Source: Saprospiraceae bacterium (GTDB lineage Bacteria; Bacteroidota; Bacteroidia; Chitinophagales; Saprospiraceae). Taken from it: DNA of 38,491 nt. The notes beneath the pieces were generated by a model. That model saw nothing but the letters and a program-made list of their open reading frames with translations, made no database searches and was not told the origin of the DNA. Positions 4,763-20,812 of the stretch are shown in pieces; the first letter of the stretch is position 1; every line of letters begins with the position of its first letter. Position numbers and translations under genes: made by a program. The stretch is taken from assembly GCA_020629965.1 (NCBI GenBank), contig JAHDCG010000051.1:1-38491 (forward strand). Direction: 5' to 3'.

Positions 4763-4880
4763 TTAGTAACTGCGACTTTTAAGTCGTCTGAAAAACGGTT
4801 TCAAATTGGTGAGTAGCCGTGACTTTTAATTCGTCTGAAAAAAAAACTTTTCCGACGACCTAAAGGTCGCAGTTACTAAA
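4763..4880. repeat. Three copies of a short palindromic repeat (TGCGAC..GTCGTCTG)
   Basis: Copy 1, TTTAGTAACTGCGACTTTTA (4762-4781), continues into AGTCGTCTGAAAA. Copy 2 is a degenerate direct copy at about 4812-4841 (AGTAGCCGTGACTTTTAATT then CGTCTGAAAA). Copy 3 is inverted at about 4849-4880 and reads TAGTAACTGCGACCTTTAGG on the minus strand. Each core is a small palindrome (CGACTTTTAAGTCG or CGACCTTTAGGTCG). Copy 3 overlaps the stop codon of the metallo-hydrolase gene. The copies face each other and could form a large hairpin that ends transcription. Confidence 0.75.
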
Positions 4881-5526
4881 TCGCTCCGTTTAAAAACGGA
4901 TTTTCCTTCCGCTCTTCTCCAACCGTCGTCGCGCGCCCGTGACCGGGATAAACCTTCACCTCGTCGCCCAAAGGAAAAAACTGCTCCCGGATACTTTGTA
5001 ATAAAACGGGCATACTGCCGCCCGGCAAATCCGTGCGTCCGATACTGCGTTCAAACAGCACATCGCCGGCAATGACAAATTTTTCGGCGGCACAGTAAAA
5101 CGAAATACTCGCCGGCGAGTGACCGGGCGTGAACAGCGTTTTCAAAGTCGTGTTTCCGAAAGTAATCTCTTCGCCCGCTTCGATAAACCGCCCGGGTGCC
5201 GGCGACTTTTCGGGATAAGCGATGCCGTACATCATAGCTACGCGCTCGACCGCATCCAAAACGGGAACTTCGCCGGCGTGAATTTCCAACTGCAAACCGT
5301 AGGTGTCCGCCACAAATTTATTTCCGAAAACGTGGTCGATGTGGCAATGCGTGTTGAGCAGCCGCACGGGCTTCAGTTCGTTTTTGGCAATGAAGTTGAC
5401 CAATTCTTGTTTTTCGGCGGCATCATAGCAGCCCGGGTCAACTATGACGCACTCTTTTGTGTCATCGTATAGCAAATAGGTATTTTCCTGAAAGGGGTTG
5501 AAGGTAAATCTTACAACATGCGTCAT
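4876..5526 (-). CDS. MBL-fold metallo-hydrolase (glyoxalase II-like)
   Basis: This 216-residue protein has the metallo-beta-lactamase fold of the small glyoxalase II-like hydrolases, which bind one or two metal ions and cleave thioesters or related substrates. The metal motif THCHIDH (59-65), the second-shell FTPGHSP, the bridging-Asp segment AGDVLFERSIGRTDLPGG and the C-terminal YPGHG are all present. The N-terminus FNPFQENTYLL is typical of the cytosolic Bacteroidota members. The stop codon overlaps a palindromic repeat. The physiological substrate is not certain; glyoxalase II or a persulfide-type relative are possibilities. Confidence 0.92.
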   Translation of the reverse strand: MTHVVRFTFNPFQENTYLLYDDTKECVIVDPGCYDAAEKQELVNFIAKNELKPVRLLNTHCHIDHVFGNKFVADTYGLQLEIHAGEVPVLDAVERVAMMYGIAYPEKSPAPGRFIEAGEEITFGNTTLKTLFTPGHSPASISFYCAAEKFVIAGDVLFERSIGRTDLPGGSMPVLLQSIREQFFPLGDEVKVYPGHGRATTVGEERKENPFLNGAI

Positions 5527-5973: not shown

Positions 5974-8900
5974 ATGCGTCATATCCTCATCTTGCTCTGC
6001 ACCCTCGCCGCCCTCACCGTCGCCGCCCAAACCACGCAGGTAGAGTTCGGTAAAAATCGGGTGCAATTTCACCAAGACTATGACGAACGCTCGAAGTACG
6101 AGAGTCAAAATTTTATCACCTATTGGTACGGCGAAGGTCGCTACATCGGGCAGTTTGTGGTGCAAAGCGCGGAATACGACCACGACGAGATACAGGATAT
6201 TTTGGAGCACCGGATGAACGATAAAATCGAAATTATCGTCTATACCGACCTCACCGACCTCAAGCAGAGCAACATCGGCAGCGAAGAAACTTTTGTGAAT
6301 ACGGGCGGACAAACGAAAATAGCGGGCAATAAAATGTTCGTTTATTTTGACGGCAATCACCAAAATCTGCGCCGCGAGGTGCGCAAAGGTATTGCCACGG
6401 TTTACATGAATGCGATGCTTTTCGGCTCTAATTTGCAGGAAATTGTGCAGAATGCCGTGACACTCAATTTGCCTGTTTGGTTCAAAGAAGGCCTCATTTC
6501 TTACGTTGGCGAAGAGTGGAGCGTAGAAATCGACAATCAACTGCGCGACCTGATGCTCAGCGGCGAATATGAAACCTACGAAGACCTCGCGGAAGATTAT
6601 CCCGCGCTTGCCGGTCATTCGTTTTGGCACTACATCGGGCAAAATTACGGCAAAAGTAATTTGGCGAACTTGCTCTACCTGACCCGCATCAATCGCAGCG
6701 TGGAAAGCGGTTTTCTTTACGTCCTCGGCACGAGTTACAACAAGATGAAGGACTCTTGGAAGCTGTATTATCTCGACCGTTACAAAAAAGAAAAAGAAGG
6801 CATGACCGCGCCCGCCGGCGAAAATTTGGCAGTGAAAAATAAGCGGGAATTGCCTTTGTACAATTTTCGCCTCAGCCCCGACGGCACCAAAGCCGTGTAC
6901 GTCAGCAACGAAATCGGACGCTACAAAGTGCACCTCGTCGATTTGACGACGAACAAATCTAAGGTCATTCTGAAAGGAAATTTCCGCAATAATTTTCAGG
7001 CGACCGACTACAATTATCCGCTGCTCGCCTTTAATCCGAATAATCAGGAATTGGGCATTATTCACGAGCGACGCGACATTATCAAGTTGCTCAAAATCGA
7101 CCTCAATACCAACGACCGCGTCGAGGAAGACATGAGTACGCAGTATCAGCGGATTTACAGTATGGACTACGCCAATCCGATAAATTTAGTGCTGTCGGCG
7201 GCGGTGCGCGGGCAGTCCGACATTTTTATGTACTTCACCAATACGCGGCAGACGCAGCGGATTACGAGCGATTTTTGGGATGATTTGGATGCACGCGTCG
7301 TTAATCTGCGCGACAAAAAAGGTATTCTTTTCGCCTCCAATCGACAAGATTCTTTGTTGGTGAAAAACGAGAAATTAGACACCATTTTGCCCGTCGGCAA
7401 TTTTGACATTTTCTACTACGACCTCGAAAATAAAAGCTCCGAACTCGTACAAATTACCGATACGCCGACTGCAAATGAACGCATGCCCGCCGCCGTCGAT
7501 ACGACTTGGTTTACCTTTCTGACCGATGTGAGCGGTGTGTATAATCGCGCTTCCGGATTTTTGGAAGACTACATTCACCACTACGACAAAATCGTGCGTT
7601 TTGAAGACGAAACGGAAATCATCATGCACCCCGACTCCGCGCTGACTACGCTGTTGGACAGCACGGCTTTGGCGATGGTCGATACCACGGAAATCGTGCC
7701 CGTCATCAAGCAGCGAGCCGTCAATCACGCGATGACCAACTACCCCGCCAACATCGTCGAGCAGGCGACCGCGCCGCGCGTCGATAAGTACGCCGAGGTC
7801 ATCATCGAAAACGGTCAATCGCAGTTGTACATCGGCGACCTGAATGCCAAAGATTTGGCGGTACCGGTGCTGACGCGCTATCAGATACAACGCTTGCAGG
7901 AGAGCAAGGAACTGACCCTCGCACCGCCCGCCGTACCGCGCCCGCAGACACCGCAACCGCAGGAAGAAGAACCCGCACCGTCGGAAGAAGAAGTACCGAT
8001 TTTCGTCAGTCCTTTTGAGGAAGAAACCGCCGTCGAGCCGGACATCAGCGAAGAGGTCGCGCCGGACACGGGCAAGGTCGATATCGACAATTATTTTTTT
8101 CAAAGCGAGTTTAACGACGACGAAGAAGCACCGACCGTGACCATTGACGAAGAGGGCGAAACCGTCTCGATAGAACGCGCCGATGCCTACTACGAAGACC
8201 CAAACGCCGCGCCGCCGGAAAAAGAAGTGATGCGCTTTAAATCGGCGCGCATTACGCCGTATCGCCTGCAGTTTCGCACGGATTACGTGACGACGCAGTT
8301 GGACAACGAGCCGCTCTTCGGCGGGCTGAACAGTTTTGTCGGTACGCCGCAGGATTTTGGCTTTTTGCCGCCCGGCATTTTGATAAAAGGCAATTTTAAA
8401 GACCTCTTTGAAGACTACGAAATCGAAGGCGGGGTGCGCATTCCGACCTCTTTCAACGGCACGGAATTTTTCTTGGTTTTTGACGACAAAAAGAAACGCC
8501 TCGACAAGCGGTATGCGGTCTATCGCCGTGCGCTGCGCTTCAATGCGGAAGATGTGCCGACCGGCCCGAATCAAGTGCAACCCCGCGACGAAAACACGCT
8601 TTTTCTGACGCAATATCAAGTCCGCTATCCGCTCAATATTTTTATGTCATTGCGCGGTACGGCAACCCTGCGTTTCGACCAAAAAATCCCTTTGGCGACG
8701 GATTTGAACCGCTTGGAAGAACCGATAATCAGAGAGCAGCGCGTGGGTGTGAAGGGCGAATTTGTCTTTGATAATACCTTGCAGGTACAGACCAATATTC
8801 TCAACGGTTCGCGGTGGAAAGTCTTCGGCGAGGTGTTCAAACGCTTGGGCATCGACCTCAACGGTGACCCCGAGTTTTCTGTCGGAGAGGGCTTTATGGG

Positions 8901-9501
8901 CGTGGTGGGCGTGGATGCGCGACACTATCAGCGGGTGCTGAAATACTCGGTTTTGGCGGGCAGATTGGCGGCGCAGACTTCCTTCGGCAGCGAGCGCGTG
9001 CTGTATCAGGTCGGCGGGACGGACAATTGGCTGCTGCCCCGCTACAACAACGAAACCGAGATACAACCCAACCAAAATTACGCCTTCCAAACGGTGCAAA
9101 CCAACGTGCGCGGCTTCGATTTAAACATTAGAAACGGTAATTCTTTCGCCCTCGCCAACGTAGAATTGCGGATGCCGATATTCCGCTATTTGTCCAAAAA
9201 TATCCGCTCGAATTTCCTGCGTACCTTCCAAGTCGTCGGTTTTTTCGACGCGGGCACGGCGTGGACGGGTCTCAATCCTTTTGACGAAGAAAGTCCGCTG
9301 AACACGGCCATCATCGAGTCAGAAAACAACCCGATTACGCTCAAAGTCAACTACTTCCGCGACCCGATAGTCATGGGCTACGGCGCGGGCGTGCGCATGA
9401 CGCTGTTCGGTTACTTTTTGCGCATCGACTACGCGAAGGGCATCGAGACGCGGCAGGTGCAGCCGAGAAAGATTTATTTGAGTTTGGGGGTTGATTTTTA
9501 G
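5974..9501 (+). CDS. Outer-membrane protein: gluzincin-like, beta-propeller and barrel domains
   Basis: This 1175-residue secreted protein belongs to the large Bacteroidota proteins often labelled 'TolB-like' or 'surface antigen'. It has a signal peptide (1-18, ending AAQ). A peptidase-MA-like domain (about 25-290) contains WFKEGLISYVGEEW near residue 168 but lacks an HExxH zinc motif; the matching stretch reads RREVRKGIA, so it is probably not a protease. A PD40/WD40-like beta-propeller follows (about 290-540), starting at FRLSPDGTKAVYVSN, then an acidic proline/glutamate-rich linker (about 650-760). A C-terminal region of about 400 residues has alternating barrel-like strands and ends in YLSLGVDF, the aromatic end typical of outer-membrane barrels. 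Its function is unknown; roles in envelope assembly or proteolysis control are guesses. The gene ends at a strong bidirectional terminator. Confidence 0.85.
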   Translation: MRHILILLCTLAALTVAAQTTQVEFGKNRVQFHQDYDERSKYESQNFITYWYGEGRYIGQFVVQSAEYDHDEIQDILEHRMNDKIEIIVYTDLTDLKQSNIGSEETFVNTGGQTKIAGNKMFVYFDGNHQNLRREVRKGIATVYMNAMLFGSNLQEIVQNAVTLNLPVWFKEGLISYVGEEWSVEIDNQLRDLMLSGEYETYEDLAEDYPALAGHSFWHYIGQNYGKSNLANLLYLTRINRSVESGFLYVLGTSYNKMKDSWKLYYLDRYKKEKEGMTAPAGENLAVKNKRELPLYNFRLSPDGTKAVYVSNEIGRYKVHLVDLTTNKSKVILKGNFRNNFQATDYNYPLLAFNPNNQELGIIHERRDIIKLLKIDLNTNDRVEEDMSTQYQRIYSMDYANPINLVLSAAVRGQSDIFMYFTNTRQTQRITSDFWDDLDARVVNLRDKKGILFASNRQDSLLVKNEKLDTILPVGNFDIFYYDLENKSSELVQITDTPTANERMPAAVDTTWFTFLTDVSGVYNRASGFLEDYIHHYDKIVRFEDETEIIMHPDSALTTLLDSTALAMVDTTEIVPVIKQRAVNHAMTNYPANIVEQATAPRVDKYAEVIIENGQSQLYIGDLNAKDLAVPVLTRYQIQRLQESKELTLAPPAVPRPQTPQPQEEEPAPSEEEVPIFVSPFEEETAVEPDISEEVAPDTGKVDIDNYFFQSEFNDDEEAPTVTIDEEGETVSIERADAYYEDPNAAPPEKEVMRFKSARITPYRLQFRTDYVTTQLDNEPLFGGLNSFVGTPQDFGFLPPGILIKGNFKDLFEDYEIEGGVRIPTSFNGTEFFLVFDDKKKRLDKRYAVYRRALRFNAEDVPTGPNQVQPRDENTLFLTQYQVRYPLNIFMSLRGTATLRFDQKIPLATDLNRLEEPIIREQRVGVKGEFVFDNTLQVQTNILNGSRWKVFGEVFKRLGIDLNGDPEFSVGEGFMGVVGVDARHYQRVLKYSVLAGRLAAQTSFGSERVLYQVGGTDNWLLPRYNNETEIQPNQNYAFQTVQTNVRGFDLNIRNGNSFALANVELRMPIFRYLSKNIRSNFLRTFQVVGFFDAGTAWTGLNPFDEESPLNTAIIESENNPITLKVNYFRDPIVMGYGAGVRMTLFGYFLRIDYAKGIETRQVQPRKIYLSLGVDF

Positions 9502-9522
9502 AAATGTACCAAATCTCATCTC

Positions 9523-9566
9523 AAAAAAAGCAGCGCGGAATACTTAAATTCCGCGCTGCTTTTTTA
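9523..9566. terminator. Bidirectional terminator between convergent genes
   Basis: AGCAGCGCGGAAT (9529-9541) pairs with ATTCCGCGCTGCT (9548-9560), a 13-bp perfect stem with a 6-base loop. It has seven A's before it and a T run after it. It can end both the outer-membrane protein gene and the convergent glycoside-hydrolase-like gene. Confidence 0.93.
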
Positions 9567-9585
9567 ATTCTTGATGAAAGTATAT

Positions 9586-12500
9586 TTACTCCTCAATCGT
9601 TACAAACCTTTTTAGAATTACCCTTCCGTCTCCGACTTTTACGCGCAGCAAATATACGCCGGCGGGCAGAGTCGAAACATCGACAATACTCGTGCCTTTG
9701 CCGCTAAAGCGAGGTGCGCTTTTGAGATATTTGCCGTTGAGGTCGAAGATGTCGAGGGCTTGTACGCCTTCGATGTTGATTTCGATTTTCAGTTTTGCGG
9801 CGGCGGGAACAGGGTAGAGGAAGATGTCATCGGTATTTGACTGCTTACTTAACTTTTCATCTTGTTCATTAGTGCCGGGGTCGGGAACAGTATATGGAAA
9901 GGTCGGTTCGTCTCCTTCTTTTTTAATTTTACAAAAACAATCGAATTCGACTCTTGCATGAACTTCTCGTCTAAAATCAATTCCCTCCGTTTCGCTTGAA
10001 ACAATCATTGTCGAAGTTTCCTCGGTTATCGGTTTTTCAATTTCGAATTGCTTCGGATTTATTAATTCATTGTTTATATCGTCGTACTCATTGGATAAAG
10101 AAACAAGATACCTGACCTTATTATTCGGGTCAGTATTCAAGGAAGAGTAGTATGGATTAGTCCACTCCAACTCCTTATCGTTGTTTGGCGTGTCGGTGAT
10201 AGTTACTTGAGTTATGACGTTTTCTTCGTAGGCTTCCGCGCTTTCCGTGGGATTACTCGGGTCGGCGAGTTGGTCATCGCTCGATGAAAGTTCTCCCGAA
10301 TGGCAAACAAACACAATTTTCTTAATTCTTGCATTACTGCTGTTCCTTGTCACTCTAATCCCTGTAAAAGAAACAGGCGTACTGACAGTTCCGTAGGTAT
10401 ATCCTTCCGGAAAATTTGCAAAGGATACCCATTCTTCATTTCCTCTTGTGTCATACTCGACAAGAGGATAAAGATTTCCGCTTGCATCTATCCCGTCTAT
10501 CTTAAAAATGTCGTTGTCATTTTCATCATAAAGATAAACGGCATCTATTTGTTGCGATCCGTTTTTGAAAGGTACTGTAAATGTTTGTACAGGTTCTAAA
10601 GGCATTTCGGGCGTACCGTCACAGGTGAAACTAATCCAAGAGCTTTGACCGGCTAAGAATTGTTGGTTAGCGTTATTATCTAAATCGCATAAATCCAATC
10701 CGTCGTAGTCAAAAAGACTCTTTGCCGCATCTAAGTCATCACAATTTGCAACACTTATCATATCGACATCGACTTCGACTGTACAAATACAATTTTTACT
10801 TTTTACTTTCTTTCTACACCAATCAGACAGATATATTTCGCCGTTTCTTTCTTTAACTCCGCGAATATAAACGTGCCAAAATTCACAGAATTTATATTCC
10901 GCATCTTGAAAATCAGTAACCACAATTTCGTCTAATCTGCCATCGATTTGGTCGTCGTAAAGAGTTAATTCGCTGATTAAAGGGTTGTTAGAGTCAGCAA
11001 CATTCCCGAACGGAGCGTAGTAAACCATGTATCTGTCCCATTTTTCGTTTGTGCCGGGAACAGCTTCGCTGTTTACGGGAATTCTCACATGTTTACAGGT
11101 TTGATACTCTATTTCGGAAGTATAACCCTGACAAACCGAAGAATTAAAGCCGGGGTCTTGATAAGATTTATCTGCTGAAATAAATATCGGTTTATCTGAA
11201 ATTTGAAAAACCTGCCCCAAGGCACTTCGCTTTCCTGTCTCGTGCGGAGCTTCTAATTCTGTTTTGAGAGAATATATAGTTGTTCCGGGAAGAAACATAC
11301 TCATGTTTTCGAAACTATAATCTACTTCAATGATTTCATCGAATTTTGCTGTAGGAATCCATACAGCATAGACTTCTTTGTTACTGTTCGAGTCCTTAAA
11401 ATTGTAAATTTTTACGGTATGTCCTTGTATTGTTATTTCGTTTGTTGTTAATTGGTTTGTTCCCGACAAGACTTCTTTCAAGGTTTTGGTATAATAGTAG
11501 GAGGGTTTTGGCTGAAAGGCTTTAGACCGTCCTTCTAATAATCCGGAATTGACAAATCGGTAGCGTCCCGGATTATAATCAACGTTGCAAGGAAAACTTT
11601 GGTCTCGGGCAGGTCTGTCAAATTCTCCTTCATCTCTCAGGCAAAATTGCATGACCTTATCCCACTCTGCCTTACGCACTTCCATAAATCCTCTGACCAA
11701 CCATCTCGCCTGCGTTTCGTAAATGACATTCAGGATTTCTCTTTGATATTTTCTGTCTAATTCATCCCAAAATCTTCTGAGGTATAATATTTTAGATTGT
11801 GGCTGAACTACTATTCCACCGTTGTCCGGAGTAAAGTCCTGAAAATTTCCAAAATCTCTCAAATCAAAAGATGTAACTATGTTGCTTGATTGAATCATAG
11901 TTTCACAATTACTTTCCCCACCCGGTACAGCAATGTCATCACCTATATCAATTGCATCTTCACTATCTAAATTGAGAGTATAAATAGGTAACGCTACCCC
12001 GTCAGAGAAAGGATTGGTGTCATAACCAAATTCAGATAACCAAAATTCTTTATTGCTTAAACCCAAATTATTTTCTGCATAAGATTTCAAGGCATTCAGT
12101 TTTTCATACAATGTCTTATTACCCGTACCGTGTGCGTCCTCTTCTTCCGGAGCAAGTCCAAAACTGCGCGGCAAACCAAAATCCGAAAATCTATAATTAT
12201 GAAAATTTAATACATCGAAAACAAATTTATCATCGCTTCTGATGTCTTCAAAAGCGTCTTTGATGCCGTCGAGGTAACCACCCGGACCGTAAATTTTTAA
12301 TTCTCGATTGGCTGATATACCGTCTTCGTTGTAGTAGGTTGTGTTGTCAATGTCTAAAAGACCTGCCATGACAAATTTATTGCTGCTTGAACCGCCGTTT
12401 GCTGCATTGACAAACCCTATATCATCATAGAAAGAAGTCCCGGCAATATCTAAATCAGTTGCATCGTAATTTGCACTCGACATTGCAGCATATTCTCTCG

Positions 12501-13281
12501 GAGAAAAGGAAGGAATTGCCTCCGGGTCTAAATTGGACGGGCAATTACAAAACCACTTATCGGGTTCGTTCCAATTTTCCAAGTAAAGCGTTTTCCCCGC
12601 AAAGACATTCTCAGTCGGGTCATTCTCTTCAGGTTCGTTTGTATAAAATTCATTGTAATCTCCGTTAGTAAAGAAAGAAACTAAACTACTGATGTAACTC
12701 GTGTACCATCCGTAAGCATTCGGGTCGTCATAAGGTATATTTGAATAAACCCACTCACAATCATTATCAACGTTCGCGGTTTCATTGTTACAATCATCAT
12801 CATCGCCCGACATATCAGGGTCTATAATTGCATAGCCGTCTTCATCAAATCTCGGAGGTCTGTTACCGAAAGTATAGTCACAAAACTGATAGTCATTGTT
12901 CAACAATCTCAAACTACCTTTGAGCGTGATGCACATTTCTCGGTCATTATCAAGCAGTCTTTTGTAGTAATCGACAAAATCACTCTCGGTAGTACTTGGC
13001 GAAGCATTCAACCAATCATATATTTTCTCGCCGGTTCTGTAATCATTTGTATCGAAGATTCGATAGTTGCTACAGTAATCCCAAGTTCGTGTTTCATCCA
13101 AATCCCATAAATGGTATTCTCGTACAAATCCCACCGCATCCAAACGTCTTGTCGGGTCTTCTCTGCGTGTATTAGTACCTAAGAACCCCTCGAAAGGCGG
13201 TAGTTGGACTTGTGCTTTCACCGCTTCGGGAAAAAAAAGAACGGCAAGCAGGAAAATTATTGTTTTAAGGTAAAAGTTCAT
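9586..13281 (-). CDS. T9SS-exported clan-A glycoside-hydrolase-like protein
   Basis: This 1231-residue protein starts with a signal peptide (1-23, ending VKAQ). Residues about 28-640 look like a clan GH-A TIM barrel: LYLENWNEPD carries the NEP motif with probable acid/base Glu239, and EFWLSEFGYD carries probable nucleophile Glu417. The family could not be named, and the barrel has large Asp/Asn-rich insertions (for example 155-175). A discoidin-like and a fibronectin-III-like region follow (about 890-1140). The last 80 residues, from LYPVPAAAKLKIEI through DLNGKYLKS to VILKRFVTIEE, are a type A T9SS sorting domain. It should be exported and act on extracellular polysaccharide. Most of the gene is clearly more AT-rich than the genes around it, except for the segment coding the sorting domain. 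Confidence 0.82.
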   Translation of the reverse strand: MNFYLKTIIFLLAVLFFPEAVKAQVQLPPFEGFLGTNTRREDPTRRLDAVGFVREYHLWDLDETRTWDYCSNYRIFDTNDYRTGEKIYDWLNASPSTTESDFVDYYKRLLDNDREMCITLKGSLRLLNNDYQFCDYTFGNRPPRFDEDGYAIIDPDMSGDDDDCNNETANVDNDCEWVYSNIPYDDPNAYGWYTSYISSLVSFFTNGDYNEFYTNEPEENDPTENVFAGKTLYLENWNEPDKWFCNCPSNLDPEAIPSFSPREYAAMSSANYDATDLDIAGTSFYDDIGFVNAANGGSSSNKFVMAGLLDIDNTTYYNEDGISANRELKIYGPGGYLDGIKDAFEDIRSDDKFVFDVLNFHNYRFSDFGLPRSFGLAPEEEDAHGTGNKTLYEKLNALKSYAENNLGLSNKEFWLSEFGYDTNPFSDGVALPIYTLNLDSEDAIDIGDDIAVPGGESNCETMIQSSNIVTSFDLRDFGNFQDFTPDNGGIVVQPQSKILYLRRFWDELDRKYQREILNVIYETQARWLVRGFMEVRKAEWDKVMQFCLRDEGEFDRPARDQSFPCNVDYNPGRYRFVNSGLLEGRSKAFQPKPSYYYTKTLKEVLSGTNQLTTNEITIQGHTVKIYNFKDSNSNKEVYAVWIPTAKFDEIIEVDYSFENMSMFLPGTTIYSLKTELEAPHETGKRSALGQVFQISDKPIFISADKSYQDPGFNSSVCQGYTSEIEYQTCKHVRIPVNSEAVPGTNEKWDRYMVYYAPFGNVADSNNPLISELTLYDDQIDGRLDEIVVTDFQDAEYKFCEFWHVYIRGVKERNGEIYLSDWCRKKVKSKNCICTVEVDVDMISVANCDDLDAAKSLFDYDGLDLCDLDNNANQQFLAGQSSWISFTCDGTPEMPLEPVQTFTVPFKNGSQQIDAVYLYDENDNDIFKIDGIDASGNLYPLVEYDTRGNEEWVSFANFPEGYTYGTVSTPVSFTGIRVTRNSSNARIKKIVFVCHSGELSSSDDQLADPSNPTESAEAYEENVITQVTITDTPNNDKELEWTNPYYSSLNTDPNNKVRYLVSLSNEYDDINNELINPKQFEIEKPITEETSTMIVSSETEGIDFRREVHARVEFDCFCKIKKEGDEPTFPYTVPDPGTNEQDEKLSKQSNTDDIFLYPVPAAAKLKIEINIEGVQALDIFDLNGKYLKSAPRFSGKGTSIVDVSTLPAGVYLLRVKVGDGRVILKRFVTIEE

Positions 13282-13411
13282 AATCGGTAATCATTTTTGA
13301 GAAGTGAAAAAGAGGAACAAAAGACAGCTTATCCGATGCCGGGCGGCACGAATAAGTGTTGGATTATGAATTGTTAATTTGGAAAGAAATCCGGATTGGC
13401 TTGACAAAGTG

Positions 13412-13419
13412 TATCTTTG
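13412..13419 (+). promoter_or_regulatory. Bacteroidota -7 element (TATCTTTG) before the metalloprotease gene
   Basis: TATCTTTG fits the TAnnTTTG consensus. No TTG at the ideal spacing upstream was found, so the -33 part is uncertain. Transcription from about 13426 would give leaders of about 60 bases to the ATG at 13485 and 100 bases to the ATG at 13524. Confidence 0.45.
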
Positions 13420-13484
13420 CCTGTATCTTGACAGCAAATATGCACAAAAAATATCAGACAGACAACAAAATTTTAAATTTTATT

Positions 13485-13562
13485 ATGAAAAAGCTCCTAC
13501 ACTTATTTTTTTTTTTTATATAAATGCAAAAATTCAAAATTAAATTTCTTGTTTGTCTTTTT
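13485..13562 (+). other. Out-of-frame natural start(s) of the metalloprotease gene
   Basis: ATG 13524 opens MQKFKIKFLVCLF, a typical signal-peptide start, but this frame stops at TAG 13579-13581. The protease frame has LVILQIHSFAQ at the same place. Removing one T from the T5 run at 13558-13562 would join them into a canonical signal peptide. ATG 13485 opens MKKLLHLFFFFI and stops at TAA 13521, directly before ATG 13524. Removing one T from the T12 run at 13506-13517 would put this ATG in frame with the protease. As read, only a TTG codon (13549) with no basic N-terminus is available. Confidence 0.75.
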
Positions 13563-16500
13563 AGTGATTTTGCAAATTCATAGTTTTGCTCAATCCTGCG
13601 GCACATTTCTTCCTTCCGACAGTATTTCTCAATCTTTCGAAAAAAAATATGTTGCCGCTTTCCGACAAGGAAACGAAAAAGACCTTGAAGAATATACGCT
13701 GCCTGTGGTCGTTCACATTGTTCATGACGGCGGAACGGAACAATTATCAACTGCGCAAATTCAGCAAGGTATAGATTATCTGAATGCAGGTTTTGCCAAC
13801 GGGGGTGATTACGGTGCAGGTCCCGGTTGGGATACGAAGATAGAATTCTGTTTAGCACAACAAGACCCTGACGGCAATGCGACTGACGGCATCGTTTACA
13901 CGCAGTCCGAAGCGACTCACGGCGGAGTCAGTGCGGAAGATATTGTAAATTCCGGAGGTTGGGATAATGACTCTTATCTCAATATTTGGGTAGTGAAAGA
14001 ACTGTGTACCATAACGGGGGAAAACTGCACGGGAGTTGCCGGATATGCTTTGGTTTCGGAATGGGCAGGTTATCAAACCGAGGGTATATATGTAGAGGCA
14101 AATTATTTTGGTACGAGTGCTCAGCTTTCCTCTTTGCTGATTCACGAAGCCGGACATTACTTGGGCTTGCTGCATACTTTTTCCGGAGGCTGTACAAATG
14201 ATGATTGCCTGACAGACGGCGACCGTGTGTGCGATACGCCGCCCGATAACTCTACGGCTTACGTGCCCTGCGGAAGTTTTATCAATAGTTGCGATACGGA
14301 TACAAACAGTGGTTTGTTTGTCGATCAGGCTGACCGAACTTGGAATTTTATGGATTACGGTTGGTCGTGTTACTCGGAATTCACGTTGGGACAAGCTCAA
14401 CGCATGCAGTATAACATAGAAAATGTGCGCCCCGGATTGATGAACTCTATCGGTTGTCAACCGATTTGTCTGTCACCGTTAACCGCAAATTTTACGGTAT
14501 CCGCAGATTCTGTTCCGGTGGGCAGTACGATTTCTTTTAACAATACTTCGGTTAACGCTACGAACTTTCTATGGAAAATAAACGGTCTTGAAACCTTTGT
14601 AACCCAAGACTTGACCTATACTTTCGACACTCCGGGGTATTACAATATAGAGCTAACCGCAAATAACGCCGACATTTATTGTACGGAAACGCACCAGGAA
14701 ATTATTTATGTTTACTGTACAGTGGAAACGGAAATACTGTGGTCAGAAATACCTCCCGACCTCGGCGATACGATTACTTTTACTGCCCAAACCAACAGTG
14801 AAAACTTTATGTGGACTGTGAACGGAACAGAATATGCGGGCAGTGAAACATTTACAGTTATTTTAAACGAAGAACAGAGTTATCTAATCGGACTACGGGC
14901 ATTTGATGCTTATTGCGAAGATTTGAGTACGGAAATGATTGTTATACAAGGAACGGCGAGTTGCGAAGAAGAACCGGAAACTTTTGTTTATGAATACAGC
15001 AAAAATATACTTAGCGGAAGAATAGGTATCGATGATTTTGTTTATTCGGTAAGAGTACCAACAAATGATGATGCCGTTTTAGGATTGAATATAAGTCAAA
15101 GTTTCCGAATAACTAAATTCGACACATTCGGGAAGGTAGTAAAAGTCAGGGATTTTTACAGAGAAGATTATACGGAAAACCCGGTTCTCGCCCAACACCT
15201 TCGCAGTTATAAAGTGGGTAATGATATTGCAATACTCAGCAGATTATCCGATAACGGACTATTCGGCTTAGTAAACTTAACGGTAATAGATACAAGTTTA
15301 AATGTAAAATTTAGTCGAGTTATTTATCATGAGGCACCTAATGTGCGAAAATATAATATTATCAGAACTACCGCAGGTAATTATTTGGTAACAATAGTTC
15401 TCGAAAATTTTCAGGAACAAACCGCTATACTCGAATTAGACAGCGAAGGGAACAATTTGCGAACTAAAATTATTACTAACGAACCGGTGGACGGAAATTA
15501 TTATCTTCGAGGCGGTTTGCACGAAACAGACGAGGATAATTTTATACTCATAGAAGACCACACTATTACTGCTTTTAACTTAGATACGGGTGTACTATGG
15601 TACAGAAGATTTGAATTTTACGAAGAAGGATATTGGTTAAATTTTCACAGTTCATCCTCCGCTAACGAAAAAATATGCCTGACAACAGCAACAGGTTTAA
15701 ATCTTACTGTTTTGCTCGATAATGAGGGAGGTGTAGAATGGGTGAAAAAATTAAATTATTTGAATACAACTACCGATACTACGGCACTCCCTCAAGGGAT
15801 TACGACTTTTTTAGAGGATGACGAAATAATTTTTTCGAGCCTAAGTTATAACAGCAGTCCGACAGCACCTGAACTACATACAGCATATCATTTAACAAAA
15901 TTAGATTTATCAGGCGAATTAGTTTGGCATCGTTCTACTAACCTTTACGAACCTTCGAGTAATCAAGGTATAGGTTTTCCTGTTACGTTTTATAAAAAAG
16001 ACAATCATTACTATTCTTTCATAGGTTTATCTACATATCTAAAATTCGATAATAACGGTTATTTTCCCGATTGCACCCCACTCGACTATCAAGCTACGAT
16101 GGAAGACGTACCTTTTAACATCATAGAGTTAGAAGCCTCCATGCGTGACACTATTCTGCCCGAATATATTAACATTAATTTACTTTCTCAAAATACAACA
16201 GGCTACCGCCTCGACCCTTGTAACCTCCTCCGCGCCGACGCTTCCCTTGACATCCTCAACCAAAATAATTGTTCTAACAGCGTAGAAGTCACCGTCCGAA
16301 TATGCAATAACGGTCAAAAAACACTCGCGCCCGATACCCCCGTCCGCATCTATACCCAAGACCCTACCGCCTACGCCGCCGAGCCGCTTTACATTTTACA
16401 GACCGGTATGTGGTTGTCGGATAACACCTGCGATACCATTACACTCAATTTACCCGACATAACAGCGACTGACTCGCTGCTGCATTTTGTTATCAATGAT

Positions 16501-18465
16501 GACGGCTCTGCCGTGCCGCCTTACGATTTCGCCGCCGACTTCTTTTCCGCAGAGCAACAAGAGTGCATCTACACCAACAACCTCGACACTCTTCACCTCC
16601 CCGACTTCACCCCCCTCACTCTCGATTTCCCCAATGACACCGTATTTTGCGAAGCCGTCGCCATCACCCTCGTTGCTCCTCCCGGTTTCACCACCTACAC
16701 GTGGCAGGGCGACACCCTCGCCGGCACCTACTCCGTTACCGCCCCCGGAGTCTATACCGCCGCCGTCACCGACAACTGCGGGCTGATACAAACCGACTCC
16801 GTCGTCGTAGAGCAATACGAAAACGCCGCCGATTTGAATCTCGGCGCAGACCTTTCCCTCTGCACCGGCGGTACCGCTTCCCTCTCCCTTCCCGATTACC
16901 CTTCCGTGTTGTGGAGCGACGGGTCGAGCGGGTCTGACATCACTTTCTCCCTGCCCGGCAGCTACGCTGTCACCGTCACCGACCAATGCGGCAACGTCGA
17001 AAGCGACACGCTGCAAGTCCTCGAAAATTTCACCGCTTTTGATTTGGGCGATGATATGACCGTCTGCCCCGCCGAGCCGGTAGTCCTCACCTTACCTCCG
17101 GGCTACACTAATATAAATTGGTTTCCCGCCGCGCTCCCCTGCACCGATTGTTCTGAAATTATCATCGAACCCCTTGCCGATATGACCGTTGCCCTCATCG
17201 CCGAAAATGCCGAAGGCTGTCAGGTTTCCGATACGCTGCACATCGCCGTGCGCAACATTGAGCAGACTTTAGGCATCGTGCCGCCGACCTGCAGCTATTC
17301 CGCCGACGGTACCTTAACCGTACAAAGTCCGCTAAACCTAACGTATAGTCTCGACGGCATCGACTTTTCCGCCGTCGGCACTTTTAGCGGTTTACCTTCG
17401 GGAGATTATCAACTTACGACAGCAGACAGCGCGGACTGTCTTTACATCACAAACTTCTCCGTTCCGACCGTTCCCGAGTTCGTCCTTGACTTCGGTACGG
17501 ATACGGTCGTGTACGCCGGTTCGGTTTTTCCGCTTGTTGCGCCCGCCGGCTATGCCGAGTATATATGGTCGCCCGCTGCTGCGGTCGATTGTTTCGCCTG
17601 TCCGCAAACGACTTACAACGGCAACTACACCGGCATCTTAACCCTCACCGTAACCGACTCGACGGGCTGCACGGCGAGCAGTGGTTTTCAAATTACTTTT
17701 CCCGCAGGTTCTCCTGCTTTTACGACATCCGGCGTAAGTTGTCACGGAACAGCCGACGGCACGCTCTCTCTGACTCCCGCTCCCGACACCCGGTATAGTC
17801 TCGACGGTGTTAATTTTACGACGACGGCAGAATTCACCGGTTTATCGGCAGACAGTTATATCCTTTATTCGGAAGACGCGCTCGGAGATGTACACGAAGT
17901 AATTTTTAGCATCACCGAACCTGCTCCGCTGCTGTTGCAGGTTACCACCGACACCACAATCACCCGCGGCGCGGAAGTCACCCTCGCCGCCGAAGTTACC
18001 GGCGGCACACCACCTTACACCTACACGCGGCAACCTACTGACTTTTTAGATTGCCCCGAATGCGTTGCTACGCTTGCCGTGCCGCCTTATTCACTCGATT
18101 ATTCGGCAGGAGTTACCGACTCTGCGGGCTGTGCGGCAACCGCCCGCACCCGCATCACGGTAGAGAATGAATACCGAGTTTTTATTCCTAATTCTTTCTC
18201 GCCGAACGGAGACGGTATCAATGACTTTTTTTCCGTGTACGGCGGCGCAAATGTCGAGCAAGTTGTCTCTTTACAAGTTTACGCTCGCAAAGGCGATTTG
18301 GTATTTGAACAACAGGACTTTGCACCGAATGACGAAAGCATCGGTTGGAACGGTATTTTTCGCGGCGAGCCTTTAAACAGCGGCATTTACGTTTACGTCA
18401 CGACTGTTAGATTCTCGGACGGTACGGAAAAGATATTTGCGGGAGATGTGGGATTGGTGCGATAA
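13549..18465 (+). CDS. T9SS-exported M43 (pappalysin-like) metalloprotease with PKD and SprB-like repeats
   Basis: This 1638-residue protein (numbered from TTG 13549; the true start is probably 13524 or 13485, one base out of frame) ends its signal peptide at SFAQ. The M43-type zinc protease domain (about 45-300) has HEAGHYLGLLH at 199-209 and the Met-turn NFMDYGW around Met268, as in cytophagalysin-like enzymes. PKD-like domains (about 305-470), a region of unknown fold (about 480-880), a CARDB-like domain (about 900-1010), Ig-like repeats and two SprB-like repeats (YSLDGIDFS and YSLDGVNFT) follow. The last 90 residues, from FIPNSFSPNGDGINDFF, are a gliding-associated type B T9SS sorting domain. 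It should be secreted or surface-bound and cleave proteins. GC content steps up inside the gene near 16200. Confidence 0.88.
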   Translation: MFVFLVILQIHSFAQSCGTFLPSDSISQSFEKKYVAAFRQGNEKDLEEYTLPVVVHIVHDGGTEQLSTAQIQQGIDYLNAGFANGGDYGAGPGWDTKIEFCLAQQDPDGNATDGIVYTQSEATHGGVSAEDIVNSGGWDNDSYLNIWVVKELCTITGENCTGVAGYALVSEWAGYQTEGIYVEANYFGTSAQLSSLLIHEAGHYLGLLHTFSGGCTNDDCLTDGDRVCDTPPDNSTAYVPCGSFINSCDTDTNSGLFVDQADRTWNFMDYGWSCYSEFTLGQAQRMQYNIENVRPGLMNSIGCQPICLSPLTANFTVSADSVPVGSTISFNNTSVNATNFLWKINGLETFVTQDLTYTFDTPGYYNIELTANNADIYCTETHQEIIYVYCTVETEILWSEIPPDLGDTITFTAQTNSENFMWTVNGTEYAGSETFTVILNEEQSYLIGLRAFDAYCEDLSTEMIVIQGTASCEEEPETFVYEYSKNILSGRIGIDDFVYSVRVPTNDDAVLGLNISQSFRITKFDTFGKVVKVRDFYREDYTENPVLAQHLRSYKVGNDIAILSRLSDNGLFGLVNLTVIDTSLNVKFSRVIYHEAPNVRKYNIIRTTAGNYLVTIVLENFQEQTAILELDSEGNNLRTKIITNEPVDGNYYLRGGLHETDEDNFILIEDHTITAFNLDTGVLWYRRFEFYEEGYWLNFHSSSSANEKICLTTATGLNLTVLLDNEGGVEWVKKLNYLNTTTDTTALPQGITTFLEDDEIIFSSLSYNSSPTAPELHTAYHLTKLDLSGELVWHRSTNLYEPSSNQGIGFPVTFYKKDNHYYSFIGLSTYLKFDNNGYFPDCTPLDYQATMEDVPFNIIELEASMRDTILPEYININLLSQNTTGYRLDPCNLLRADASLDILNQNNCSNSVEVTVRICNNGQKTLAPDTPVRIYTQDPTAYAAEPLYILQTGMWLSDNTCDTITLNLPDITATDSLLHFVINDDGSAVPPYDFAADFFSAEQQECIYTNNLDTLHLPDFTPLTLDFPNDTVFCEAVAITLVAPPGFTTYTWQGDTLAGTYSVTAPGVYTAAVTDNCGLIQTDSVVVEQYENAADLNLGADLSLCTGGTASLSLPDYPSVLWSDGSSGSDITFSLPGSYAVTVTDQCGNVESDTLQVLENFTAFDLGDDMTVCPAEPVVLTLPPGYTNINWFPAALPCTDCSEIIIEPLADMTVALIAENAEGCQVSDTLHIAVRNIEQTLGIVPPTCSYSADGTLTVQSPLNLTYSLDGIDFSAVGTFSGLPSGDYQLTTADSADCLYITNFSVPTVPEFVLDFGTDTVVYAGSVFPLVAPAGYAEYIWSPAAAVDCFACPQTTYNGNYTGILTLTVTDSTGCTASSGFQITFPAGSPAFTTSGVSCHGTADGTLSLTPAPDTRYSLDGVNFTTTAEFTGLSADSYILYSEDALGDVHEVIFSITEPAPLLLQVTTDTTITRGAEVTLAAEVTGGTPPYTYTRQPTDFLDCPECVATLAVPPYSLDYSAGVTDSAGCAATARTRITVENEYRVFIPNSFSPNGDGINDFFSVYGGANVEQVVSLQVYARKGDLVFEQQDFAPNDESIGWNGIFRGEPLNSGIYVYVTTVRFSDGTEKIFAGDVGLVR

Positions 18466-18469
18466 AAGT

Positions 18470-18503
18470 AAAAAGCTACTGCCTTTTGAGAAAGACAGTA
18501 GCT
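18470..18503. terminator. Terminator between convergent metalloprotease and MORN-caspase genes
   Basis: AGCTACTG (18474-18481) pairs with CAGTAGCT (18496-18503), with an inner CTTT/AAAG stem. On the minus strand it is followed by TTTTTACTTTT, so it serves the minus-strand gene best. It lies directly after the stop codon of the plus-strand gene and may serve both. Confidence 0.8.
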
Positions 18504-18536
18504 GTGATAATCAAGCATCATGTCAACAAATCCCCC

Positions 18537-20216
18537 CTACTTCACAACAGCCACCGGCATATTCCTGTCGAAATTCCCCGTAATCGTAGGGTTTTGCGAC
18601 TCGAAAGTATAGCGGCGCACCTTCACCGAAACGTAGTCGAATAATTCCGTAATCGTCACGATTTCGTTTTGGTCGCGGTCGGCTTCGCCTTTCAGACCTT
18701 TTATCATGTAGTGACTGAAAACGCCCGAGCGCAGTCCGCCGTCTTCCAAAGAAACCTCCTCTTGCTTGGAAGACATCATCAGTGCCAAGCCGCCTTTGGT
18801 CGTCTCGAAAGCATCGCTGAACCGACGCAACGGCTCCCCGTTCGGAGACTTTGCGGCGAGCAAACCGCCCGAGTAGCAGGCATCCGCAAAGACCATTTTG
18901 TGCTTGGCTTTGCTTTCCTGTAAGACACTTTTAATCTCGTCGTAGCGAATGCGGTTGTTGTAACCGTCATAGTCCACCGGCAAAAACGAACCCTCCAAGC
19001 CGTGTCCCGAAAAGTAGAACAAGACCACGTCGTTTTCGTCGGCACGCAGAAAAACTTCGCGCATCGCCGAGAGGACATTTTTGCGGGTCGCGTCTTCATC
19101 GACCAAAAGGCGCAAACGCCGGTCGGGCAAAGAGCCGCCCTCCGGACTCTTCAAAAAGGCATTGATGCGGTAGGCGTCGTCGTCGGTAAAGTTGAGGACG
19201 GGCATGTGCGCGTATCTGCCCACGCCGACCACTACAGCCCAGATGCGCACCGCCGGGTCGCGGGCTACGGCGATGTTTTTTGCGTCACCGAAGGTTTCGT
19301 TCGGCTGTGTCTCGGCGAGTACCCGACCGTTTTGAAAAACCGCCCCGAGTACGCGCCCGTTGACGTAGCGCATCACGCCCTGCCCGTGCGGTGCGTGGTT
19401 GCGCCACATGCCCTCGTAGCGGTCGCCGTTGGCGTAGGTGACGGTGCCCTGACCCTCGGGGCTGCCGTTGCGAAACGAACCCTGATAGACCGAGCCGTCG
19501 CCGTAGCGAAAAGTACCCAAGCCGCCGTTACAAAATGCGGTGTTGCAGTTGCGTTGCATCTCTGCGGAGACCGCCGCCGAGCCTGCCGAGGGGCGACTGT
19601 TCACCACGGCGTTCACGATTTCGGCGTCGGGGGCGTCGGTGCGGTTGCCGTTGGTCCAGGTGCCGTATTGTACCGCGCCGTCGTAGAGAAAGAGCGTACC
19701 TCTGCCGTGTTTTTTACTTTCTTTCCAAAAGCCCTCATAGCGCGAGCCGTCGCCGTAGTGCATGGTGCCGTGCCCGTCGAAGCTGCCGTTGAGGAAATTA
19801 CCGACGTAGCGGTCGCCGTTTTGGAAGCGGTATTTTCCGCTGCCGTTGGGGCGGTCGTTTTCCCAGTTGCCGTCGTAAATGTCGCCGTTGGCGTAATTCA
19901 TAATGCCTTTGCCGCGCATTTTGCTCGACACAAAACCGCCGATATAGACATGCCCTTCGTTGAAGGCTAATTTGCCTTCGCCGTGGCGTTTGTCCTGTTG
20001 CCAGTCGCCGAGGTATTTATTGCCGTTGGAGAAGGTCAAAATGCCTTTGCCGTCGCATTTGCCGTTTTTGAAATTACCTTCGTAAACGGCACCGCTGCGG
20101 TACATTTTTTTGCCGTAGCCGTTGGTGCAGTCACCCGTCAGACATTGCGCATCGGCGGTGGTAAAGGTGAAAATCAGGAAGAAAACCGTAGTTGCATAAC
20201 TCAAATAATTTTTCAT
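18537..20216 (-). CDS. Secreted MORN-repeat protein with C-terminal caspase-like domain
   Basis: Starting at Met 20216 rather than 20252 gives 559 residues with a clean signal peptide (1-24, ending TADAQ). About nine MORN-type repeats (YxGxWxxGxxxGxGxxxYxNGxx) fill 40-195 and 232-300 in two blocks, each opening with a C-x4-C pair (25-30 and 224-229). A peptidase C14 (caspase/orthocaspase) domain covers about 322-559, with catalytic His405 in FYFSGHG and Cys447 in DACYSGG, both intact. Such enzymes usually cleave after basic residues; the specificity here is not known. No T9SS sorting domain is present, so the protein is likely periplasmic or in the outer envelope. MORN repeats may bind lipids or proteins. 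An immediate regulator or partner is not seen. Confidence 0.92.
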   Translation of the reverse strand: MKNYLSYATTVFFLIFTFTTADAQCLTGDCTNGYGKKMYRSGAVYEGNFKNGKCDGKGILTFSNGNKYLGDWQQDKRHGEGKLAFNEGHVYIGGFVSSKMRGKGIMNYANGDIYDGNWENDRPNGSGKYRFQNGDRYVGNFLNGSFDGHGTMHYGDGSRYEGFWKESKKHGRGTLFLYDGAVQYGTWTNGNRTDAPDAEIVNAVVNSRPSAGSAAVSAEMQRNCNTAFCNGGLGTFRYGDGSVYQGSFRNGSPEGQGTVTYANGDRYEGMWRNHAPHGQGVMRYVNGRVLGAVFQNGRVLAETQPNETFGDAKNIAVARDPAVRIWAVVVGVGRYAHMPVLNFTDDDAYRINAFLKSPEGGSLPDRRLRLLVDEDATRKNVLSAMREVFLRADENDVVLFYFSGHGLEGSFLPVDYDGYNNRIRYDEIKSVLQESKAKHKMVFADACYSGGLLAAKSPNGEPLRRFSDAFETTKGGLALMMSSKQEEVSLEDGGLRSGVFSHYMIKGLKGEADRDQNEIVTITELFDYVSVKVRRYTFESQNPTITGNFDRNMPVAVVK

Positions 20217-20812
20217 CAGTATGGATTTTGATGAAGCAGCGTGTCGTGTCATGTGTCAGTCAAGGTGAACGCCGTAGAACGCTTCGTAATTCGTAAATCA
20301 GGTTATGTAACTTTGGTACTTATAGGATGAGATTTTGAATAGTCAGAAAAGAAGAAGAAAAACCGGATTGCCGCCGTCTTTATTGCCTGCTAAAAGTTAA
20401 AAAGTGAGTGAAAAGAAAAAAAAGTGTCGTTTACTGTACTTTTTTCGGCACGAAAGCAAAAAAATACCGATATTTGCCACACATTTCCCACACTAACGAC
20501 ATCTTTTCTTTACTGACGGTTATTTTACACACAAAGTTACTTTTTCCTTATTTTAACTAACCTTCCCACTCGTTTTCCAAACATTTAGACCGTTCAAACT
20601 TTCTACTTAGACAATTTATATTTTTTGAAATATAACTGTGGAAACACAGCGCGGACAGCGTCATAACAACGTCCGTTTTTTTGTAATTAAAACGACACAT
20701 TCCCGCTCGGCTCAATCCGATAAGCGGTGCTGTTGCGTATTTGATTTTGATTTCCCTACACTCCCCAAGCGTACTTGAAACCTAATACTCCCGACTCTGA
20801 ACATATTTAAAA
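20217..20812. other. Divergent intergenic region with an orphan terminator-like hairpin
   Basis: About 600 bases separate the MORN-caspase gene from the divergent leucine-rich-repeat gene, and no coding frame is convincing. TAACTTTG (20308-20315, plus) and its reverse CAAAGTTA (20532-20539, minus) are possible -7 elements. CGGAC (20652-20656) and GTCCG (20671-20675) form a weak stem followed by a T7 run. It could end a small RNA or be an attenuator in the leader of the next gene. Confidence 0.35.

Follow-up and report, generated by a model that had tools for sequence, protein, structure and literature searches.

A stretch of 38,491 nucleotides from a Saprospiraceae bacterium (contig JAHDCG010000051.1, here C132; the whole stretch is referred to as the window) raises the question of how two divergent genes came to share a block of AT-rich DNA that is bounded by GC-richer DNA. 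One gene encodes a protein resembling glycoside hydrolase (GH) family 39 and the other an M43 pappalysin-type metalloprotease, and both products are predicted to be cargo of the type IX secretion system (T9SS). An earlier reading of the letters alone (the sequence-only reading) proposed that a single exchange had replaced the two catalytic halves as one block, leaving the resident C-terminal ends in place. The analysis described here points to a different history. On balance it is probable that the AT-rich core is the older-diverged part of a lineage-restricted pair, whose three dispersed copies within this genome (291 contigs, 6.52 Mb in total) have undergone recombination among themselves.

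The segment itself, which had been placed at 9900-16195, is clearly visible in bins of 500 bp, with a GC content of 35-47% across 9501-16500 and of 48-62% in both 6001-9500 and 16501-20000. The same contrast is found in the GC content of fourfold-degenerate third positions (GC4f), a measure that removes amino-acid bias. The GH39-like gene has a GC4f of 0.42, compared with 0.63-0.83 for the window's 16 remaining called genes. Along the protease gene, read in bins of 67 codons, GC4f stays within 0.23-0.55 as far as residue 871; thereafter most values are 0.6-0.8, with 0.45-0.53 in the last ~100 codons. A two-changepoint model fitted to 2010 fourfold sites in four genes gains 137 nats, with segment means of 0.834, 0.416 and 0.713; thus, the third-position step that had been named as the check on the segment's edges is present. 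The right edge is best placed at 16200 (2-nat set 16158-16332), inside the protease gene, and shifting it to the end of that gene costs 32.7 nats. The best position for the left edge is 9489, within the final codons of the neighboring gene P0003 (2-nat set 9465-9886), while placing it at the end of the GH39-like gene costs 1.3 nats and at 9900 costs 5.0 nats. The claim that both edges fall inside coding sequence thus holds on the right and is not borne out by composition on the left, where the edge fits either a gene end or the border of the sorting domain and need not lie inside the GH39-like gene. The sorting domain of the GH39-like protein does differ from its body, with a GC4f of 0.62 (n=40) vs 0.40 (n=402; Fisher p 0.007).

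The genome contains three dispersed copies of the divergent pair: that of the window, one on contig C57, and one that would run across contigs C284 and C72 (we infer a single GH copy across both; no overlap was found between the contig ends). The full-length proteases on C72 and C57 are 50% and 48% identical to that of the window, and each has a divergent GH gene beside it. The three copies lie at unrelated places, with convergent neighbors at each. The reading frame of the C57 GH gene is interrupted by an in-frame stop and by a frame break. The other copy is split between the end of C284 and the start of C72, with residue 376 as the meeting point of its parts, and its frame breaks near residue 906. 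Two of the three GH copies (L050 7305-10816; L051 7065-9619) are seemingly broken and their protease partners are open, although sequencing errors are possible. Among overlapping sets of 39, 397 and 395 genomes, in which up to 17 candidates per genome (first set) or the two best (the other sets) were scored, the GH protein was found above thresholds in no other genome, and the pair appears to be lineage-restricted. A search of the same genome with a 9 kb stretch of DNA found, outside the paralogous copies, only four matches of 34-63 bases (40 of 118 candidates scored). Therefore, at the DNA level the C-terminal ends are not the generic local type that the sequence-only reading had supposed, and generic local ends that could have served as homology arms were not found among the scored candidates.

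The relatedness of the three copies changes along their length. Over 2741 columns aligned in all three, 1097 informative amino-acid sites record which two copies agree, and a recursive maximum chi-square search with permutations, in which columns are treated as exchangeable, finds three breaks (Table 1). In the segment containing the GH sorting domain, the pairings window-C57, window-C72 and C57-C72 are seen at 35, 11 and 7 sites, respectively. Little preference is seen over the next two thirds of the GH gene (93/115/80). In the block from 12.04 to 16.60 kb, which comprises the N-terminal part of the GH protein and the catalytic and middle domains of the protease, C57 and C72 agree at 348 sites vs 88 and 76 for the other pairings. 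In the C-terminal half of the protease the copies are again nearly equidistant, the window being slightly nearer to C72 (59/102/83). The two ends of the window pair have different nearest partners: its GH C-terminal sorting domain (CTD) is 66% identical to that of C57 and 40% to that of C72, whereas its protease end is 72% identical to C72 and 61% to C57. The non-coding region between the genes follows the block around it, with 79% identity between C57 and C72 and 68% and 71% for the window (the start points in C57 and C72 were picked by eye). Since the block from 12.0 to 16.6 kb spans two genes and the non-coding DNA between them, linkage explains it and protein-specific selection does not. 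Fourfold sites of the protease also distinguish its two parts. Window-C72 identity is 44/140 in the N part and 116/233 in the C half (p 0.0005) and window-C57 identity is 50/140 and 105/220 (p 0.03), whereas C57-C72 identity is 108/240 and 106/234 (p 1.0). The proposal that ends and catalytic cores differ in history is thus upheld by breaks near 9870 and at 16595 (16200 by composition), the former falling, independently of composition, at the sorting domain where a left edge of ~9900 had been proposed.

These observations suggest a sequence of events in which a divergent T9SS cargo pair, present as three dispersed copies in one genome, would have recombined mutually through ectopic homologous recombination or gene conversion, the recombination and its direction both being deduced from the pattern. 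Compared with the core, the GH sorting domain and the protease C-terminal half of the window would by this route have become closer to the paralogues. Synonymous GC is higher in these ends, and the edges of the recombined tracts would then roughly coincide with the GC steps. Both proteins would be exported by the T9SS and act on a polymer outside the cell. Because the nearest partners differ at the two ends, separate events at the ends are favored, although three copies are too few to tell overwritten ends from a replaced core. A general rule of GC-biased gene conversion, in which recombined DNA becomes GC-rich, finds no uniform support, as C72 is not GC-rich in the block where it is close to C57.

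Could the step instead be older than the copies? In such a history, domain fusion or import linked an AT-rich catalytic and middle part with a GC-richer repeat and CHU_C part before duplication, and the copies inherited the contrast with little later recombination. All three local proteases do have a step, at residues 885, 959 and 1189 of their respective sequences, close to a shared domain junction. For such intragenic steps they rank first, second and fourth in a set of 79 genes of this genome that are 800 aa or longer, and the failure to detect the GH protein in other relatives at the thresholds used fits an import. Comparison with other genomes places the step in context. A survey of M43 homologues covered 75 stretches from other genomes and the three local copies (78 genes), of which 74 outside this genome could be compared (one was too short). 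The difference in fourfold GC between C and N parts has a median of 0.01 elsewhere (5-95% range -0.067 to 0.127), whereas the values for the local copies are 0.28, 0.31 and 0.20. Thus, the step is not intrinsic to the M43 architecture. It exceeds 0.2 in two of the 74 homologues elsewhere, which counts in favor of an old fusion; against such a fusion, the arrangement of M43 and C-terminal repeats exists in other genera without the step. Twelve of the surveyed genes have a step of more than 10 nats, and in ten of these, the three local copies included, it runs from low to high GC. The two homologues, L116 1240-6957 (G003) and L214 (G306), belong to other genera and step from 0.22 to 0.72 and from 0.45 to 0.73, respectively; their C parts are GC-richer than nearby or sampled genes of their own genomes. 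Moreover, the N-part fourfold sites of the window protease are near saturation relative to the paralogues (window-C72 identity 0.31 observed, 0.26 expected), so that a fossil composition should have faded unless it was maintained. For the same reason a recent import whose trace is now fading is an unlikely source of the low GC in this N part, which is similar to that of other secreted genes of this genome. An old fusion also leaves the differing relatedness of the segments unexplained, and we consider it unlikely as the main cause. The simpler alternatives named in the sequence-only reading, AT-rich divergent promoters or amino-acid bias, fail: the step is present at fourfold sites and extends through coding DNA, and 72 of the 74 homologues elsewhere show no step above 0.2.

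Several points weigh against recombination among the copies. At fourfold sites the three-way test gives only weak results (p 0.020 and 0.026). Of the 10 such sites in the GH sorting domain, 6 group C57 with C72 and 2 group the window with C57, opposite to the amino-acid result. The break permutations assume exchangeable columns, the compositional and relatedness estimates of the right edge (16200 and 16595) are ~400 bases apart, and there are only three copies, with one GH copy split over two contigs. Trees were built with 14 (M43 part) and 10 (C half) of the 75 available outgroups. C57 and C72 group together in the M43 part with support of 100/99, and the C half gives the copies no clearly supported grouping (window with C72, 64/51). 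In approximately unbiased (AU) tests of the M43 part, window with C57 is rejected (p 0.034) and window with C72 is not (p 0.084); in the C half neither alternative is rejected (p 0.36 for C57 with C72, 0.32 for the other). The conflict therefore lies more in branch lengths than in topology. Overall, evidence for a mosaic is strong from amino acids and linkage, moderate from synonymous sites and weak as formal topological conflict. A further comparison gives the M43 part and the last 700 residues a shared best partner in 31 of 77 genes, a result that is blurred by repeats and carries no weight here.

The lack of significant topological conflict and the weak three-way test are what would be expected if no recombination had occurred, and domain-specific rate changes in single copies (heterotachy), together with the low synonymous GC of accessory secreted genes, had mimicked a mosaic. 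Low GC4f is indeed common in such genes here. In a background of 433 called genes (837 kb, with sampling weighted towards contigs carrying T9SS genes), the median GC4f is 0.71 and the 5th percentile 0.40, and values below 0.5 are found in 24 of 58 recognized type A cargo genes vs 22 of 375 others (CTD genes were recognized from 150 of 404 scored candidate places, and weaker CTDs are thus counted among the others). However, rate changes confined to single proteins would account neither for a non-coding region that follows the adjacent coding pattern nor for a pattern contiguous over two genes, and fourfold identity in the protease changes from the N to the C part in the comparisons with the window, whereas that of C57-C72 stays level. 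We regard this account as decidedly unlikely.

The single exchange, in which the core from ~9.9 to 16.2 kb was replaced as a block with the C-terminal ends as homology arms, gains from breaks in relatedness and composition near both proposed edges and from the core, where the window differs most from its paralogues, yet it is highly improbable given the additional break at ~12.0 kb, the different partners of the two ends, the protease step in all three paralogues (which therefore does not record a local event), the presence of the pair, ends included, at three unrelated places between convergent neighbors, and the failure to find the same C-terminal ends with other catalytic halves among the relatives examined (one congener, 89% complete). 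Repeated recombination among the copies fits better.

Table 1. Genes, domains, candidate active-site codons and relatedness breaks in the window
Feature	Positions	Strand	Remarks
MBL gene	4876-5526		kept together with P0003 in relatives
P0003, left flanking gene	5974-9501	+	weak Omp85/TolB-propeller similarity, under curated cut-offs
GH39-like (clan GH-A-like) T9SS type A protein gene	9586-13281	-	1231 aa; GC4f 0.42
Por_Secre_tail type A sorting domain of GH39-like protein	9601-9819	-	GC4f 0.62; amino acids closest to C57 copy
Relatedness break 1	9869-9875		edge of GH sorting domain; permutation p 0.002
Relatedness break 2	11978-12044		inside GH39-like gene; permutation p 0.0005
E417 codon (WLSEFGYD)	12031-12033	-	candidate nucleophile, role suggested by invariance in 25 aligned sequences
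E239 codon (NWNEPDKW)	12565-12567	-	candidate acid/base, role suggested by invariance in 25 aligned sequences
Divergent intergenic region between GH39-like and protease genes	13282-13548
M43 pappalysin-type metalloprotease gene, T9SS type B cargo (predicted)	13549-18465	+	1638 aa if read from TTG; uncertain start codon
Zinc motif HEAGHYLGLLH, residues 199-209	14143-14175	+	fits HEXXHXXGXXH
Protease middle domain, residues 391-884	14719-16200	+	lowest GC4f
Protease repeat-rich C-terminal half, including CHU_C type B sorting domain (residues 1545-1623)	16201-18465	+
Relatedness break 3	16595-16598		inside protease gene; permutation p 0.0005
MORN-caspase gene, right flank	18537-20252	-

The pair sits between the convergent neighbors P0003 (+) and the MORN-caspase gene (-). 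In a congener (G001), Omp28 and DUF6029 genes come after the left flank of MBL and P0003, and the right flank of MORN and LRR genes is conserved on another contig, where it adjoins a gene of 889 residues; the MORN-caspase gene is linked there to the LRR gene and has no link to P0003. Since each flank is conserved but the two are apart, the pair of the window is located at a synteny break. A clean empty site was not found in this congener, whose flanks are on different contigs and beside other genes. P0003 and DUF6029 are on different contigs in four other genera too. The dispersed copies of the pair might themselves have mediated rearrangements around 9501-9586 and 18465-18537.

As had been read from the sequence, the GH39-like protein ends in a T9SS type A sorting domain (residues 1155-1227; PF18962, 36.1 bits with a cut-off of 27; TIGR04183, 38.5 bits with a cut-off of 23), and is on this basis classed as type A cargo with predicted export. 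Neither Pfam nor NCBIfam gave an enzyme match, and a profile search of the PDB gave weak matches to GH30 (E 0.048). Distant relatives of the N-terminal ~700 residues are present at 32 loci, mostly in Bacteroidota with some in Planctomycetota, at 24-39% identity in the best segment. Two glutamates, E239 and E417, are invariant across the 25 sequences of an alignment containing the window copy and 24 of these loci. A predicted structure of moderate confidence (predicted local distance difference test, pLDDT, 63; predicted template modeling score, pTM, 0.73) has as its best VIA-align rows PslG (9g17; Z 25.3, root-mean-square deviation (rmsd) 3.5, 382 aligned), which we take to be a GH39 member, and a GH39 enzyme of Bacteroides cellulosilyticus (5jvk; Z 24.6, rmsd 3.3, 367 aligned). 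Structure matches to the model include GH39, GH1 and GH51 enzymes, and Foldseek puts GH30 enzymes first. Enzymes of clan GH-A are characterized by a (beta/alpha) barrel and a pair of catalytic glutamates. The protein thus resembles PslG and 5jvk in the fold of its model and in its two invariant glutamates, but it is only 16-17% identical to them and matches no family profile. It is labelled GH39-like and is probably a sugar-cutting enzyme.

The protease has both the M43 family profile (PF05572, 75.3 bits with a cut-off of 23) and the extended zinc motif of the pappalysins, and is thus a predicted protein-cutting enzyme. Its type B sorting domain (PF13585, 54 bits with a cut-off of 27; TIGR04131, 43.7 bits with a cut-off of 35) is of the CHU_C, gliding-motility type, from which export by the T9SS is predicted. 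The order of its parts is M43, a PKD domain, the middle domain, the repeat-rich C-terminal half and the CHU_C domain. Past its first ~150 residues, the middle domain matches by BLAST only the three local copies (15 genes compared), and it has no profile match in the PDB (best E 0.68). The CARDB-like region suggested for this protein was not reported by Pfam at E <= 0.01. A Cys-Gly motif is reported to serve as a cysteine switch in the pro-segment of a pappalysin (PMC6949598). The window translation has C17-G18, and a CG follows a signal-like stretch in the C57 and C72 copies. Genes for distant GH-like proteins adjoin an M43 gene, or lie within ~4 kb of one, on contig C8 of the same genome and in a Saprospiraceae metagenome-assembled genome (L055 4706-12091; L073 1850-13468), hinting at a recurrent partnership of GH-like and M43 proteins.

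Published cases in which catalytic and export parts have been re-combined were found for two oral pathogens only; here the unit is a two-gene cargo set in three copies whose parts seem to have separate histories, the breaks lying at or near domain junctions. In Porphyromonas gingivalis, adhesin variants of Kgp are reported to have no linkage to variants of the catalytic domain, from which recombination was inferred (PMC5266723). The gingipains Kgp and RgpA, which together with HagA undergo domain rearrangement and exchange of alleles in that species, are likewise T9SS cargo, with C-terminal adhesin modules after their catalytic domains (PMC5266723). Independent inheritance of the gingipain type may be reflected here in the different nearest partners of ends and core, although weakly at fourfold sites. 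However, gingipains vary as alleles between strains of one species, while the window pair has dispersed paralogues within one genome that are far more diverged, carry a synonymous-GC step and belong to other enzyme families. In Tannerella forsythia, the KLIKK proteases are T9SS proteins of high A/T content for which fusion of catalytic domains to shared C-terminal parts has been proposed (PMC4404884). One of them, mirolysin, is a pappalysin like the window protease (PMC6949598). The KLIKK proteases have virtually identical CTDs on different catalytic domains (PMC4404884), whereas here each copy has the same catalytic domains, the CTDs of the copies are 37-73% identical, and a type A and a type B CTD stand side by side. 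The window proteins end in FVTIEE (GH39-like) and DVGLVR (protease), with no KLIKK end and with differing CTD types, and so do not belong to that group. What sets this case apart from both systems is the presence of divergent pairs at three sites of one genome, with far more diverged ends. In the open-access literature, nothing was found on type IX secretion together with domain shuffling, or on the gliding motility-associated C-terminal domain together with recombination.

Large T9SS cargo proteins are a main route by which many Bacteroidota attack outside polymers. A broader idea, entertained only tentatively, is that the T9SS export ends of this genome form a recombining pool, in which AT-rich accessory catalytic bodies repeatedly pick up, or are overwritten by, GC-richer ends, so that the secretome would be re-assembled from bodies and export adaptors with separate inheritance. 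Of 21 AT-rich type A cargo genes of this genome, 6 have a sorting domain that, taken singly, has the higher synonymous GC, while among 20 GC-rich ones a single sorting domain is significant, in the downward direction (the other 17 of the 58 type A genes belong to neither group). As a group, the 21 AT-rich genes have a synonymous GC that is 0.118 higher in the sorting domain than in the body upstream of it (p 0.014). A weaker rise of 0.064 is seen in the 90 codons that precede the sorting domain (p 0.09), the first 90 codons show no rise, and the contrast between the CTD and the pre-CTD region has a p of 0.067. Between paralogues, CTD and body identities are poorly coupled, with values such as 56% for bodies and 85% for CTDs, or 62% and 37%. 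The CTD composition, this poor coupling and the comparable intragenic step in two of the 74 proteases from other genera are suggestive of an exchange of export ends. If this is true of the wider set of sorting domains, synonymous-site composition would be a cheap marker of swapped export ends in T9SS genomes.

Individual loci with uneven identity include the neighboring cargo genes at L155 10026-15263 and 16423-17628, whose CTDs are 85% identical vs 56% for their bodies, and those at L056 6769-7731 and 7792-9291, whose CTD DNA is 89% identical over 92 bases and for which no body match is listed. Finally, contigs C133, C196, C254 and C170 carry a repeated set of AT-rich T9SS cargo, in which genes of ~1100 residues stand beside genes of ~520 residues (L131 7886-12940, L142 7195-12333, L157 8127-13127 and L158 5864-13401), and some genes of this set have GC-rich sorting domains on AT-rich bodies.

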